A stretch of 49,041 bases of DNA from Bacteroidales bacterium (lineage in GTDB: Bacteria; Bacteroidota; Bacteroidia; Bacteroidales; UBA3824). The notes under the pieces were generated by a model, which saw only the letters and a program-made list of their open reading frames with translations, did no database searches and was not told the DNA's origin. Shown here one piece after another: positions 33,189 to 37,943 of this stretch. Position numbers and translations under genes: made by a program. How positions within the stretch are numbered: position 1 is the first letter of the stretch; each line of letters starts with the position of its first letter. The stretch covers positions 1 through 49,041 of the forward strand of contig JAKSLV010000008.1 of NCBI GenBank assembly GCA_024401025.1, written 5' to 3'.

Positions 33189-33213
33189 CTTTCGATAATT
33201 TTTGTTGTTAGTT

Positions 33214-33567
33214 ATGAGCAATATGATAAAAACACAGCAAGAGGTTGAGTCCTTTCTGCGTCACTTTATGCCCAAGTTTGATATTTTCGGCATTTTCTTT
33301 CTCAATAGAGAAAAGAATGAACGGGCCTTGCTTGCTTTGGGTATTACCCGAAAGTATAGGGAAGAGGTTGTAAGAAGTATCGAGGTAAGCGATTATGTGG
33401 AGACAATCTCTGATGCCGTGAGTTATGGCGATATGTGGGTTTTCGGCAAGGACGTGAATGAGCATGAGGTTTATATTAAAATAACGATGGGATATCCCAA
33501 CAGCAATACCATTTGCATATCATTCCATGAGGCCGAACACCCGATTAATTATGCGTTCAAAAAGTAG
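33214..33567 (+). CDS. mqsR: MqsR-family toxin (mRNA interferase)
   Basis: A 117-residue small protein. The C-terminal half, DMWVFGKDVNEHEVYIKITM followed by CISFHEAEHPI, is the diagnostic MqsR-family block (WVFGK..n...YIKl...CISFHEA). MqsR proteins are RelE-fold, ribosome-independent RNases that cut at GCU in E. coli. The ATG at 33214 is preferred to a TTG at 33202. The downstream antitoxin gene begins 10 nt after the stop, the toxin-first order typical of mqsRA. The flanks are AT-rich, in keeping with acquired DNA. Confidence 0.85.
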   Translation: MSNMIKTQQEVESFLRHFMPKFDIFGIFFLNREKNERALLALGITRKYREEVVRSIEVSDYVETISDAVSYGDMWVFGKDVNEHEVYIKITMGYPNSNTICISFHEAEHPINYAFKK

Positions 33568-33577
33568 GGAGGTGGTT

Positions 33578-34576
33578 ATGGAGAAAAAGTTGACTGCTTT
33601 GAGAAGCCCATTTACGGGCGGGCGTGTGTTTGAGGTTTTTGACGAGGAGGAGCGCGAGTTCCGCAAGGAGAAATTTCAGGTGCACTGCCGTTATTATGTC
33701 TGTGAGGATACCGGTGAACAGTTTACAGGCGATGATCAGGAAGATCTTTGGGTCAATGAGGTTTATAGTCAGTGGAGAATTCGCCACGGAGTTCCTTTCC
33801 CCGAGGAGATAACAAGTATCAGGCTCAGGTACGGAATGAATTATACACAAATCTCAAAAATAATGGGATTCGGTGTCAACCAGTGGAAACAATACGAGGA
33901 TGGATGTATGCCTTCGGAGTCCAACGGCAAAATGATACGTGCTGTCACAAACAAGTCAACTATGTTGTCGTTGCTCGAAAGTAGCCGTTCTGAGTTTTCG
34001 GAGTCTGAATATGACAAACTCTTGAGTCAGGTGAAATCTGTTGATGAGTTCAATCCTGATGATTCCCTGAAATCCATAATTTATGGTAGAAACCGTTCCG
34101 TTGACATTATGAATGGATATGGCTCACACAATCCGGCCAAGGTGTCTGCGATGGTAAAGTATTTAGTGACAAGATGCAAGGGTATTAGTCCTACCAAACT
34201 CAACAAGATGATGTTTTATTCCGACTTCTACAATTTCAGAAGATCGGGGTGCTCTATCAGTGGTTTGCAATATAGGGCAATCCAATTTGGCCCCGTACCT
34301 GATCATTACGATACTATTTACGACAATATTCCGGGATTGGAGAAACGTGTTCAGATTTATCACGAAATGGAATGTACCACTCTTTCTGCGGAATATGATG
34401 GCGATACTTCCATTTTATCAAAATATGAAATTGGCGTACTCGACGGTGTATTGTCAACTTTCGGCGCTCTCTCAACTTCCTCGATAATCGAGCGCAGTCA
34501 TCAGGAGACCGCATGGATCAATCACGAGAAGGAACACGGATTGATTCCTTACAGCGAGGCGTTCGGATTGAAGTAG
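33578..34576 (+). CDS. Antitoxin: MqsA-like/HTH plus Panacea (DUF4065) domain
   Basis: A 332-residue antitoxin for the upstream MqsR. The N-terminal ~65 residues have the layout of a YgiT/MqsA zinc domain, but the usual CxxC pairs are replaced (SPFTGG in place of CPxCG). An Xre/YgiT-type helix-turn-helix follows (LRYGMNYTQISKIMGFG, WKQYEDG). The C-terminal ~150 residues form a Panacea domain (SPTKLNKMMFYSDFYNF, QYRAIQFGPVPDHYDTIY). The ATG at 33578 has an unusually good Shine-Dalgarno (GGGAGG, 7 nt upstream), rare in this phylum, which would favour antitoxin over toxin synthesis. The HTH implies autorepression. Confidence 0.83.
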   Translation: MEKKLTALRSPFTGGRVFEVFDEEEREFRKEKFQVHCRYYVCEDTGEQFTGDDQEDLWVNEVYSQWRIRHGVPFPEEITSIRLRYGMNYTQISKIMGFGVNQWKQYEDGCMPSESNGKMIRAVTNKSTMLSLLESSRSEFSESEYDKLLSQVKSVDEFNPDDSLKSIIYGRNRSVDIMNGYGSHNPAKVSAMVKYLVTRCKGISPTKLNKMMFYSDFYNFRRSGCSISGLQYRAIQFGPVPDHYDTIYDNIPGLEKRVQIYHEMECTTLSAEYDGDTSILSKYEIGVLDGVLSTFGALSTSSIIERSHQETAWINHEKEHGLIPYSEAFGLK

Positions 34577-34614
34577 AAATTTTGAAGTCGCTTTGAAAAA
34601 TATTTCACAAATAT

Positions 34615-34646
34615 TTTGCATTTTGCTTCAAAATTGTATAGTTTTG
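34615..34646 (+). promoter_or_regulatory. Canonical promoter driving the structured RNA and the 34944 gene
   Basis: TTTG at 34615-34618, a 20-nt spacer, TAGTTTTG at 34639-34646: an exact TTTG-N20-TAnnTTTG. Transcription should start near 34653, nearly 290 nt before the next ATG. Confidence 0.8.
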
Positions 34647-34652
34647 GAGTGT

Positions 34653-34880
34653 GATAAAAGGAGGGCAGGTGAAATTCCTTGCCACTACATAACATATTAT
34701 TAACTAGCGTTTGCTATTTATTCGGAATTGCACCTAAAACCTGAGAAATTTTAGAAAACAGCAAAACCCACGAATAAGTCAGTGAATGCCTGCGTCTTTG
34801 CGTGGGCTTGACTTATCAGGGTTTTGCGGGCAGTTCTCAGGGCCTAAGGTGCTTGGATTAGTCTCCACGCATTTTTTGTG
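34653..34880 (+). ncRNA. Structured RNA (leader or independent) with a five-helix nested hairpin
   Basis: The expected transcript contains a 123-nt hairpin, 34730-34852, of five stacked perfect or near-perfect helices. They are 34730-34735/34847-34852 (6 bp), 34740-34747/34834-34841 (8 bp), 34761-34769/34819-34827 (9 bp), 34774-34781/34809-34816 (8 bp) and 34788-34794/34801-34807 (7 bp, two wobbles), with a 6-nt loop. An asymmetric 13/6-nt internal loop lies between helices two and three. Smaller hairpins lie upstream (GGCAGG with CCTTGCC; TAGC with GCTA). Downstream, CCACGC at 34865-34870 can also pair with the apical GCGTGG and is followed by six T residues, which suggests an alternative terminator form. 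I do not recognise a known family. Confidence 0.6.
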
Positions 34881-34943
34881 CCCTTGTAGAGAGCCCGCAA
34901 CACCGAAAAAGATAGGAAAGGCATAAAACGTAATGGTTTAATT

Positions 34944-36800
34944 ATGGATGTTAGCAGTTTGTTGTGCCCTCATTGTGGGTCTGCCGATTGTAAAATAGTA
35001 AAAACTATTGCTTCTACTTATGATTGTGAGGCTAAGGTTTATTATTTATGTAATTCTAATAGGGTAGAGTATTGCCGTTCATTTGATTTAAAGGAAAGTA
35101 GGAGTGCGTCAAACAGTCTCTTGAATAAGAGAATGTTTTGTTTGGCGATTGATGATTTGAGAAGAGACTATAATTCATATTTTAATGCAGTTAAGTTGTA
35201 TGATCTTCTTTTAGAATTTGTTGGTGAAAAAAGTGGGATTATAGAGGGTATATATTGTGGTAAGTTTCTTTCTTTGTATCTATTGGGTGATAGTTATATT
35301 AAAGATAATGTTGATGTTTCAAAGGGAGGAGAATGCTATAAGAAAGCTTTGTTATTATGTGAAAAAATATTGAAGATGGAGAGTTGTGAAAAGGAAGAAG
35401 GTCTGATAGAATTCTTCAATATTTGTCGTTCTTTGTTGTTGTATAATATGCCAAAGGAATTGTCAAAATTTGAAAGTAAGTATGATATTAGGCGTTGGGC
35501 ATTGTATGGCTCTTCTGAAATTTCTCTTTTAGAGGAAATGGCTAAAGATCATCCATTTTTTGCTGATTGTTGTCTTCAGTTTCCAGTTGTTTTGGAAAAA
35601 ACCGAAGAGTCTGTTTGGCAGGATTTTGATATGTACAAGAAGATTGATGTGAATTCTTCTCCTGAATTTATTCAGCAATGCAATGACTTGAAGTTTTCTA
35701 CAAGCAAGTATATACCTTTTGTTGACAGACAGTTTATTATGTTCGCCAAAAACAGCGAAGCTATTAAAAGGTATTATGATGTTGATGATAATATCAAATG
35801 GTTTTTTACCTTGGACAAATACCCTTCTGATATTCATATCGAGGGTTTCCCTCAAACTGGTGTTCTTTATATGGCCAATCCTGTAAAACCTAATGTTTAT
35901 ATCCCTGCCGCAAGTGCTGACGAGATGTTGTTTGATGACAAAATCCGAGAATTTGAATATCTTATGAGTTGTTTGGGGGCGACAAGAATTTCTTTCAGAT
36001 CGTTGAAAGGTCGTAAGATTTATTCTGAGAATTCATCAAGCAACAATATTGGCGCAAGTGTAGGGTTGGGCACATTGGGCGTGAATGGTAGTTATTCGTC
36101 ATCCGAATTTGGTAATAGTGACTCTGTATACTCTTCCGAGATAGGACGCGATCAGGAATGGAACCCAACAAAGTATCCATATTGTCCTGATGATTTGTAT
36201 TGGTTTAAATATGTTGATGCTTGGAAAACTTTGGTAAAGCAACGTTTGGAGGGTAATCAATTGTCCTTCAGATATGTGTTCAAGTCTTCCGAGTGTGTTC
36301 AATTGTCTAATCAGCGAAGACAAGAGATTTCTGTTTCGTTCAATCGATTGATGCTGTCTGCAAATGCCAATTACAATCAGGAAAGTTCTTCTGTGTTCAA
36401 AAGCCAAGAAGAAACCGAATGGGTTGTCGATGTTGTTTTCAAACCATTAGAGGAGTTTGTATCAGGCAAAAGTTCTTTGACGATGACGGACAGTGAACGG
36501 ACGTATTTGGAAGAGGTGAGATTTATTTTGGAAGATGGACCGATTGGTCAGCGTGAGCGTAATGCACTCATTCGTATGAGCAACCGACTTGGTATTTCCG
36601 TTGAAAGGGCCAGAGGATTAGAGGATTCTATCGTCCCTAAATTATCAGAGGAAGAACAACAGTATTATGATGAATTGTGTGCGATATTGGAAGATGGCGT
36701 TATAGGAGATAGAGAACGTAAGTCTCTTGATCGTTTCAAAAATCGACTCGGACTTTCTGATGCTCGTGCTTTGGAAATAGAAAAAATGGTGAAGAACTAA
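34944..36800 (+). CDS. Unknown 618-residue protein, Zn-ribbon-like N-terminus, C-terminal repeats
   Basis: Not recognised. Residues 1-44 hold CPHC (8-11) and further cysteines at 16, 28, 36 and 44, a probable zinc ribbon. Residues ~50-340 are mostly helical, then beta-rich. Around residues 364-396 lies a Ser/Gly/Asn-rich stretch with alternating hydrophobic residues (NNIGASVGLGTLGVNGSYSS), and a second such stretch lies near 462-486. This pattern is also seen in membrane-inserting hairpins of pore-forming proteins. The C-terminal 107 residues are two copies of a ~52-residue helical module (512-566 and 567-618) with the pattern Y-x2-(E)-x4-LEDG-x-IG-x-RER-x5-R-x3-RLG(I/L)S-x3-AR. No signal peptide is visible. 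It is strikingly AT-rich against neighbouring genes, hence probably acquired. It has a structured leader and its own promoter. Confidence 0.75.
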   Translation: MDVSSLLCPHCGSADCKIVKTIASTYDCEAKVYYLCNSNRVEYCRSFDLKESRSASNSLLNKRMFCLAIDDLRRDYNSYFNAVKLYDLLLEFVGEKSGIIEGIYCGKFLSLYLLGDSYIKDNVDVSKGGECYKKALLLCEKILKMESCEKEEGLIEFFNICRSLLLYNMPKELSKFESKYDIRRWALYGSSEISLLEEMAKDHPFFADCCLQFPVVLEKTEESVWQDFDMYKKIDVNSSPEFIQQCNDLKFSTSKYIPFVDRQFIMFAKNSEAIKRYYDVDDNIKWFFTLDKYPSDIHIEGFPQTGVLYMANPVKPNVYIPAASADEMLFDDKIREFEYLMSCLGATRISFRSLKGRKIYSENSSSNNIGASVGLGTLGVNGSYSSSEFGNSDSVYSSEIGRDQEWNPTKYPYCPDDLYWFKYVDAWKTLVKQRLEGNQLSFRYVFKSSECVQLSNQRRQEISVSFNRLMLSANANYNQESSSVFKSQEETEWVVDVVFKPLEEFVSGKSSLTMTDSERTYLEEVRFILEDGPIGQRERNALIRMSNRLGISVERARGLEDSIVPKLSEEEQQYYDELCAILEDGVIGDRERKSLDRFKNRLGLSDARALEIEKMVKN

Positions 36801-36956
36801 TAACTGCAATTGAATGTTGTCTTTTTTTCTTCCCAATAATTTCCATATTTGAAATTAATTGCCAGCCTTGTAACCTTAACAAATATCGCTATGTGTACTG
36901 TAACTATGACATTTGATGTTCCTGAGACAAGGAAAATAGATCCTTCCCCCCCCCCT
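36801..36956. other. Convergent gap with a C10 tract
   Basis: No gene or convincing terminator is seen between the unknown gene and the convergent membrane-protein gene. A run of ten C residues (36946-36955) abuts the stop codon of the minus-strand gene; AT-rich DNA to its left and GC-rich DNA to its right make this the island boundary. Confidence 0.6.
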
Positions 36957-37943
36957 CTAATATATCACCGGCAGCCTGTCCAAATAGAAACGCTCTTCCT
37001 CCAAATCCTTCTCTACGAAAGCCTTGAAAGCCTTGTCGTCGGTGTGTTTGGCGATGTTGTCGAGGTCCATGGCGCGCTGAATGTAGGGGTCGTTCCAGAG
37101 AACCTGGTAAACCACCGAGCGCAGCGAATACACGTAGGCGGTATCCTCGGGAGCCACAAGCTTCTTGAGGTCGGTGTATGGCCAGTTGCGGTCTCTGCGG
37201 TATTCGCCTATAATCCTGATGTTCCTCTCCTGAGGGATGTTTTCCCTGCCGCCGTATGCCAGAGCCTCAGCCTTGGAATCGAAATCCGCCTCCGACACTC
37301 CGTAGGCCTCCAAAACCTTCTCCTTCTTGAAACCGCGGCTAACGTCGTACCAGGCGGCTATCAGCTTGGCATCGTCGCGGGAGATGGGCACATTCACCAT
37401 CTCGCTGCTCACCAGCGATTCCACGAGCTCTGTCTTGGCGTGGTATGGCTCCATGCGGTGTCCGTAGAGCAGTATCAGCAGCCCGAGCGCAAGTCCTGCT
37501 ATTACACGCGGCATCAGCTCGCTCTTGCTGAAGGTGATGGGATGATTATCCTCGCTTGCGTTGTCTTGGGAATCGCTCTCGTCGCCCGCGGCTATCAGCA
37601 TTATGAACACCACCAACAGGGCTATCGAGCTGAGTATCAGCATCAGCGAACCGCCGGGGAAATGCTTGAACTTGAACATAATGCCTATCGACAGCATGGC
37701 CAGGGCTATAAGCGCGAAATTCCTGCGGCCTATCACCAGGGCGTTTTCGCCGCGCTCCATTCCCGTAAGGCTTATCCTGAACAGCGATACCATGTACACG
37801 GCCGCCAGCGCCAGCGATGTCACTATAAGCATCTGCCTTAGCATGGTGTCGTCTATGTCGAGCTTGGCGCAAAGCATTATTATGCCCAGCACCACCAGCT
37901 CTGCAACCTCGGCTATTTTCAATGTCTTGCTGATGTTTTCCAT
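36957..37943 (-). CDS. Membrane protein of unknown function
   Basis: A 328-residue protein with TM segments in the first ~170 residues: VAELVVLGIIMLC, MLIVTSLALAAVYMVSLF, FALIALAMLSIGIMF, LMLILSSIALLVVFIMLIA and VIAGLALGLLILLYG. A soluble C-terminal half of ~150 residues is charged and helical (DDAKLIAAWYDVSRGFKKE and so on). I recognise no family. It lies 12 nt downstream of the ABC-F gene and is the last gene of the PBP1A-DUF4249-folK-ABC-F series. GC-rich codon use matches its neighbours. Confidence 0.72.
   Translation of the reverse strand: MENISKTLKIAEVAELVVLGIIMLCAKLDIDDTMLRQMLIVTSLALAAVYMVSLFRISLTGMERGENALVIGRRNFALIALAMLSIGIMFKFKHFPGGSLMLILSSIALLVVFIMLIAAGDESDSQDNASEDNHPITFSKSELMPRVIAGLALGLLILLYGHRMEPYHAKTELVESLVSSEMVNVPISRDDAKLIAAWYDVSRGFKKEKVLEAYGVSEADFDSKAEALAYGGRENIPQERNIRIIGEYRRDRNWPYTDLKKLVAPEDTAYVYSLRSVVYQVLWNDPYIQRAMDLDNIAKHTDDKAFKAFVEKDLEEERFYLDRLPVIY

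Follow-up and report, generated by a model that had tools for sequence, protein, structure and literature searches.

Attenuation leaders and riboswitches are characterized by mutually exclusive helices together with a U-tract ahead of the start codon. JUMPstart, EAR and put are antitermination RNAs, i.e. leaders that affect the elongation of accessory operons, and the attC site of integrons is a structured repeat located next to exchangeable gene cassettes. The Bacteroid-trp leader (RF01692) and JUMPstart are listed in passages of PMC2864571, and passages of Weinberg 2010 present Flavo-1 (RF01705) and other motifs as Bacteroidetes candidate RNAs of no known function that occur in many places.

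The locus described here lies in a stretch of 49,041 nucleotides from a Bacteroidales bacterium, which as a whole is referred to as the window. A structured RNA was located at 34690-34930 on its + strand, as one copy of a repeated family with a size of about 190-250 bases per RNA. Judged from sequence comparison, the balance tips slightly towards a cis-acting, attenuator-type leader of a new, class-wide family of Bacteroidota. A description of this RNA was not found in the portions of the PMC literature covered, among them main-text passages of PMC2864571, PMC9723704, PMC6414381 and PMC8040213.

The RNA in the window and its relatives

Regarding stability, the minimum free energy of 34647-34890 was -80.7 kcal/mol against a shuffled mean of -62.5 (z -3.7), and 0 of 200 shuffles were as stable. 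Upstream of the RNA, the sequence TTTG-N20-TAGTTTTG, which we take to be the Bacteroidota-type promoter consensus, is present where the first-pass annotation had placed it. A related question concerns TAnnTTTG, quoted as a promoter element in passages of PMC6414381. Of the 76 subtype-assigned Bacteroidales copies with at least 220 nt of flank, 48 carry this element in the 220 nt upstream on their own strand and 18 carry it on the opposite one. Between promoter and core, a short ATG-starting reading frame overlaps a variable small hairpin in many copies (by eye; e.g. L004, L016 and L028), and is possibly a leader peptide. Directly upstream of the RNA, 33202-34576 of the window holds two genes: one for an MqsR-like toxin, its Pfam match lying just at the cut-off, and behind it one whose product has a SocA-Panacea domain and matches MqsA below the cut-off.

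The DNA of 34640-34890 finds matches in 14 of the 19 genomes of the genus (own included), with up to 7 per genome, and these matches, the own one aside, are 72-89% identical over the matched part. A genome collection was also scanned with an exact core pattern, which by its nature selects for the core. This yielded at least 119 stretches from Bacteroidales or other Bacteroidota, mostly from gut metagenome genomes where a source is named, the exceptions being two chance Clostridium matches and one ‘uncultured bacterium’. Within the order, 10 of 393 genomes (own included) carried the pattern and 0 the reversed control. After deduplication there were at least 126 copies, two of them the chance Clostridium matches and one (L066) counted twice; 116 had 300 nt and 107 lay below 90% identity. 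Among these 107, at least three subtypes could be distinguished: A (including A2) with 40 copies, B with 14 and C with 25. The 28 unassigned copies, one of which is a Clostridium match, were left out of the pairing tests.

To reach more distant relatives, R1 was used, a covariance model of the region from P3 to the U-run, built from 34 copies with the 5' core left out. With the own genome included in each count, R1 matches 17 of the 19 genus genomes at 100 places (up to 14 copies per genome), 16 of 296 phylum-wide genomes at E<=0.001, and 38 of 395 class-wide genomes at E<=1e-6, these belonging to 28 of 197 genera. The 32 class-level copies were found by R1, i.e. without using the 5' core motifs, and their upstream flanks contain AGC[GA]TT in 21 of 32 (shuffle mean 0.7) and ACATAT in 14 of 32 (shuffle mean 1.5). 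In L170, L179 and L182, small HTH-like or lipoprotein-like genes are preceded by what, judged by eye, is a longer subfamily of the RNA, its apical arm enlarged. A plasmid of Chryseobacterium sp. JJR-5R carries a copy (R1, 40.2 bits) ahead of a hypothetical gene. A phage- or plasmid-borne origin of the window copy was considered and found no support in the virus and plasmid collections searched; the exact core pattern occurs in 0 viral contigs, and a phage search with one class-level copy found none.

The first-pass annotation could not assign a family, and the Rfam scan gave none either. Rfam 15 had 0 matches in the window at the gathering cut-off. At E<=10, eight sub-threshold matches appeared in 34560-35000, the lowest E being 0.43 for Gut-1 (18.6 bits against a cut-off of 50), and in 9 class-level loci (E<=0.1) there was one sub-threshold match, away from the element. 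Bacteroidales-1 (RF01693) had no match in the own genome, which is 75% complete. An identity as tRNA or tmRNA was rejected. For a group I or II intron, no Rfam match was obtained at E<=10 (34560-35000) or at E<=0.1 (9 class-level loci). A 6S-like RNA, offered earlier as an alternative, is disfavoured: the 6S models, searched over the window, gave no match there at gathering threshold or in 34560-35000 at E<=10, and the RNA sits before open reading frames (ORFs) and has a branched, pseudoknotted fold.

The features of the window copy are given below. The z values come from a test in which each copy's own strands were compared with strands exchanged between copies; for subtype A this comprised 36 of the 40 copies (L053, L088, L093 and L136 left out). 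Relatedness among the sequences inflates these values; control pairings in the same set lie near 0.

34615-34646, +: promoter match TTTG-N20-TAGTTTTG, with TTTG at 34615-34618, 20 nt, and TAGTTTTG at 34639-34646
34690-34704, +: start of the conserved unit, TAACATAT..., a homology boundary between copies with unrelated flanks
34706-34715, +: P1, small 5' hairpin AGC-GTTT-GCT (AGCGTTTGCT); AGC[GA]TT in class-level flanks
34718-34724 with 34771-34777, +: P2, pseudoknot TTATTCG : CGAATAA; class-level z -8.7, B -4.0, C -3.1, and A -4.4 for the core against the stretch containing the CGAATAA strand
34731-34737 with 34845-34851, +: P3, CACCTAA : TAAGGTG; z -13.7, double changes in 6 of 7 pairs
34740-34747 with 34834-34841, +: P4, CCTGAGAA : TTCTCAGG; A -7.8, C -5.9, class-level -15.2
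34760-34769 with 34819-34827, +: P5, hypervariable stem AGCAAAACCC : GGGTTTTGC; z -22, class-level -14.1
34772-34780 with 34810-34817, +: P5b, GAATAAGTC : GACTTATC; 98.5% of cells paired, nearly invariant, swapped-strand z -1.1 (strand too invariant for that test)
34787-34795 with 34800-34807, +: P5c, apical hairpin TGCCTGCGT / GCGTGGGC; 99.3% of cells paired, z -5.5, class-level -4.8
34800-34807 with 34863-34870, +: P9, alternative to P5c, GCGTGGGC : CTCCACGC; A -2.9, B -5.4, C -7.3, class-level -4.7
34848-34877, +: T, local terminator-like hairpin and U-run TTTTTT (34872-34877); stem z -6.3 in A, weak in the window copy
34840-34843 with 34880-34883, +: P8, GGGC : GCCC, competing with P4; A -4.0, C -5.8, B -2.8
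34824-34831 with 34893-34900, +: P7, TTGCGGGC : GCCCGCAA; tested in subtypes A (-5.7) and C (-5.7)
34706-34931, +: P0, 5' core with the 3' strand adjoining the start codon; A -4.5, C -3.4, weak in the window copy (GCGTTT : AAACGT)
34944-36800, +: downstream gene, 618 aa, weak match to the candidate defence family PDC-S48

Covariation and competing folds

Covariation was counted in 34 A-type copies (L071 and L120 additionally left out). Over 39 pairs in six helices, 93.9% of the cells are paired, compared with 26.7-46.4% when the partners are slid. Cells changed on both sides number 148 against a shuffled mean of 54.7, and 0 of 500 shuffles attained the covariation score. Double changes are present in 17 of the 39 pairs, a count that 26 of 500 shuffles also attained. 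In the exchange tests, control pairings stayed between z -1.2 and 1.4 throughout; three controls gave -0.1 to 1.2 in the 36 A copies and three gave -1.2 to 0.1 in the 32 class-level copies. The first-pass annotation had regarded an absence of covariation as fatal to its proposal, and the pairing was found to be kept by covariation. The five nested helices it had described are present, and both the 34 related copies and the exchange tests place them beyond chance. Two points were added here: the conserved unit starts already at 34690 and includes the small hairpin P1, and the pseudoknot P2 had been absent from the earlier description.

Changes that turn a pair into G-U rather than A-C inform on the strand. 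The ratios of G-U to A-C are 74:0 in P5c, 22:3 in T, 8:8 in P4 and 32:28 in P3, counts in which the P3 columns were partly and the P5b columns mostly off register. Thus, the G-U excess in P5c and T points, on balance, to an RNA of the + strand.

Several of these helices compete. In P9, the 3' half of the apical hairpin is bound by the strand immediately ahead of the U-run, which excludes P5c, P8 takes the 3' strand of P4, and T and P9 likewise share a strand. These alternatives are mostly supported by covariation, except for T class-wide and P4 in subtype B. In the window, the duplex energy is -12.7 kcal/mol for P9 and -11.3 kcal/mol for P5c, the loop cost not being counted. Since both pairings are supported and share a strand, this indicates two mutually exclusive folds of similar duplex energy. 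At the level of single strands, the pairing of CCACGC (34865-34870) with GCGTGG (34800-34805), followed by six T, and that of GCCCGCAA with TTGCGGGC on the right arm had both been predicted and both exist in the sequence. The proposal that such pairings exclude each other stood for P9 against P5c in A, B, C and class-wide, for P8 in A, B and C, and for P7 and P4 in A and C; in the case of P4 in subtype B it did not, the exchange test not being significant (z -1.2).

The U-tract lies approximately 10-120 nt ahead of the start codon. At least 6 T in an 8-nt window are present in 38 of 40 A, 8 of 14 B and 20 of 25 C copies, and at least 5 T in 8 nt in 31 of 32 class-level copies. Some results speak against an attenuator: a consecutive run of at least 6 T occurs in 24 of 40 A, 4 of 14 B and 5 of 25 C copies, a pattern scan found no terminator-like site in 34400-37000, and a terminator stem formed by P9 would have a loop of about 55 nt. 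The local hairpin T was dropped as a universal terminator in favour of P9 with the U-tract; it is unsupported in the 32 class-level copies (z -1.3, not significant).

Neighbouring genes and flanks

The protein encoded at 34944 resembles PDC-S48 at the level of the whole protein (PADLOC, E 1.2e-8), with no single stretch passing and the best residues at 502-567, and has no Pfam match above cut-off. In the other 18 genomes of the genus only two partial matches of 27% were obtained; no full-length relative was found that would allow a co-occurrence comparison.

To describe the neighbours, 105 of the 107 copies were examined (Clostridium and L066 left out), of which 101 had an ORF downstream, chosen as the longest with preference for starts at least 200 nt past the core. 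The spacing from core to ORF was 196-267 nt in 73 of 77 subtype-assigned copies, a constancy that is partly by construction because of this rule; under a first-ATG rule, many but not all starts fall within the same range. The 101 downstream proteins form 33 clusters and the 99 upstream proteins 76. As to the check proposed earlier, whether homologues of the RNA always precede homologues of the 34944 gene, the genes behind other copies are unrelated to it. As the RNA is class-wide, multi-copy and placed before unrelated genes, a role as dedicated partner of the 34944 protein, which had also been suggested, is unlikely.

Among the 25 downstream Pfam families tallied (of 48), there were 31 N6_Mtase, 18 N6_N4_Mtase, 4 C5 DNA methylase and 2 D12 matches, with overlap between families possible. 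DNA methyltransferases thereby appear to make up about half of the genes behind Bacteroidales copies. The motif [DNS]PP[YFW], a motif for the catalytic site of N6/N4 methyltransferases, is present in 44 of 101 downstream and 4 of 99 upstream proteins, many downstream proteins being truncated where the contig or locus ends. The 25 most common of the 157 upstream Pfam families, of which the rarest has 2 members, include no DNA methyltransferase family; YhcG nucleases account for 10 of the 99 upstream proteins. Restriction helicases, a DarT-like protein, YhcG nucleases and a dynamin-like protein were also found behind Bacteroidales copies, and the remaining genes encode fimbrillin-like proteins, acyltransferases, HAD proteins or unknown products.

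At the class level, 27 of 32 copies have an ORF start within 130 nt downstream on the same strand, compared with 9 of 32 for a divergent control, and the targets include small ORFs. Of 29 ORFs present, 20 were scanned: 2 of the 20 are methyltransferases, one is NucS-like, and the rest belong to secreted or uncharacterised families or have no match. The link to defence is therefore strongest in Bacteroidales.

Important insight can be gained from the flanks of similar copies. Among 89 pairs with at least 84% identity of the element, 61 share neither flank, 9 the upstream flank only, 7 the downstream flank only and 12 both; six of the 61 lie near a contig end, in six the downstream proteins are homologous, and the pairs are not independent, one copy occurring in many. 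L069 and L116 have 98.4% identity over the 190 bp that run from TAACATAT to the U-run, and neither their genes nor their flanks are related. Similar copies before unrelated genes and in unrelated flanks indicate that the RNA behaves as a portable module, and from these alignments it seems to travel separately from the genes, via several exchanges or another route. Orthologous upstream flanks carry different modules in L028/L128 (98.4% to +42), L095/L110 (96.5% to +62) and L003/L144 (96.9% to +34, L144 without the structured RNA), with homology stopping just past the core. The 3' junctions of the element vary between the U-run, the P7 region and the ATG.

Some copies are reduced. L012 is without about 155 nt of the RNA domain (around +68 to +71 from the core), which the otherwise similar L008 has, and keeps the core and an HsdM-like gene, an observation counted in favour of a regulatory leader. 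A core without structured RNA was seen near start codons at L060 6764 and 7862, L138 1460 and L150 6158 (oriented coordinates), mostly before DUF1016/YhcG nuclease genes (two by Pfam, the others by eye) and partly in series. From 3449 of L144 onward, the core is adjoined by two inverted genes resembling cytosine methyltransferases, with their 3' end next to it. In L110, sequence of the 3' end of pyruvate:ferredoxin oxidoreductase (Pfam POR) flanks the methyltransferase module on both sides, at -1258 to -1033 and +2308 to +2526 from the core, which suggests the insertion of an island.

Possible function and comparison with known systems

The covariation of both folds, the U-tract, the position before ORFs, the same-strand promoters, the G-U excess and the promoter-side flank shared by different modules together support a regulatory leader. 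The first-pass annotation had proposed an attenuator or riboswitch controlling the 34944 gene; a leader of attenuator or riboswitch type is still the best reading in view of the covariation, and the specificity for this one gene had to be given up. We infer regulation and its direction as follows. Transcription would begin just upstream, at the promoter match, and co-transcriptional folding would build the pseudoknotted domain P1-P5c. The strand before the U-tract would then pair with the apical 3' strand (P9) or, in Bacteroidales, with its local partner (T), and the strands after the U-tract would pair back on P4 and P5 (P8, P7) and on the 5' core (P0). The two folds would thereby set whether the polymerase stops or reads through at the U-tract, and in the read-through RNA P0 may close the region of the start codon.

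The mobility of the copies could also be read at the DNA level, as a module for recombination, i.e. a cassette junction or repeat, with the core as a marker of places at which defence genes are exchanged, and with transcription that is incidental. Similar elements in unrelated surroundings, the orthologous flanks with homology ending just past the core, the core-only copies and, by eye, a likeness of the element's 3' end to the reverse complement of the core would all fit. Such a module would not call for strand-specific G-U pairs, nor for a pseudoknot and alternative helices kept by compensation, and same-strand promoters, a uniform orientation before ORFs, the variable 3' junctions and the absence, in 19 genomes, of any integron integrase above the curated threshold weigh further against it, so that we consider it unlikely. 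A small RNA standing on its own, with an action in trans or as partner of the downstream protein, is improbable: the unit common to L069 and L116 does stop at the U-run, and 5 of 32 class-level copies are without an ORF start within 130 nt, but the downstream proteins span 33 clusters and the strands past the U-run are likewise kept by compensation.

Little probability is likewise given to an RNA that modifies the polymerase, by processive antitermination, for the reading of long accessory operons rather than as a signal-controlled switch. One pseudoknotted leader near a promoter match and before unrelated genes, several of them the first genes of restriction-modification loci, is what such an RNA would look like; the conserved U-tract and the competing strands within the leader speak rather for a local decision, and small ORFs are among the class-level targets. 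Hardly credible is a self-cleaving or self-splicing ribozyme between core and start codon, whose removal would give the core-only form of L060 and L150. P0 does join the two ends, and there are core-only alleles, but no Rfam intron or ribozyme matched even at a permissive threshold, and a conserved catalytic core is not recognisable in the RNA.

For the cis-acting leader, a broader role can be put forward tentatively, at less than even confidence: a generic, portable control module, in which one ancient pseudoknotted switch moves between loci as a unit of its own and defence and other newly acquired genes are coupled to it, so that restriction-modification genes and surface genes unrelated to one another would all be expressed alike in response to infection or entry. 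As a rule, a leader RNA controls a single type of gene; here a single fold stands before dozens of unrelated genes. If it is a true switch, it would be a shared control point for acquired anti-phage defence, and how Bacteroidota restrain newly arrived restriction-modification genes would become directly testable, R1 and the strand pairs listed above being sufficient for the design of mutants.

Among known systems, attenuation leaders and riboswitches such as Bacteroid-trp share with the RNA the 5' leader position, the exclusive helices and the U-tract. It differs from them in that one pseudoknotted family without an Rfam match stands before dozens of unrelated genes, with no shared metabolic theme or ligand evident; regarding riboswitches in particular, the pseudoknot domain is conserved and the downstream genes share no metabolic pathway. 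JUMPstart, EAR and put differ in structure and taxa, and the present RNA has its U-tract within the leader. With attC it has in common a structured repeat beside exchangeable genes, and some class-level cores resemble TAAC..GTTA; however, the copies are dispersed rather than arrayed and the structure is 5' of the gene. Integron attC was rejected, as the integrase TIGR02249 is over cut-off in 0 of 19 genomes; sub-cut-off partial matches occur in 19 of 19 and likewise in 13 of 14 control genomes. Flavo-1 is also a Bacteroidetes candidate RNA with many copies, but neither the window nor the 9 class-level loci gave a Flavo-1 call in the Rfam scan. Altogether, the RNA looks like a new family among the structured leader RNAs, unusual in that it is shared by, and seems to move among, unrelated accessory genes.
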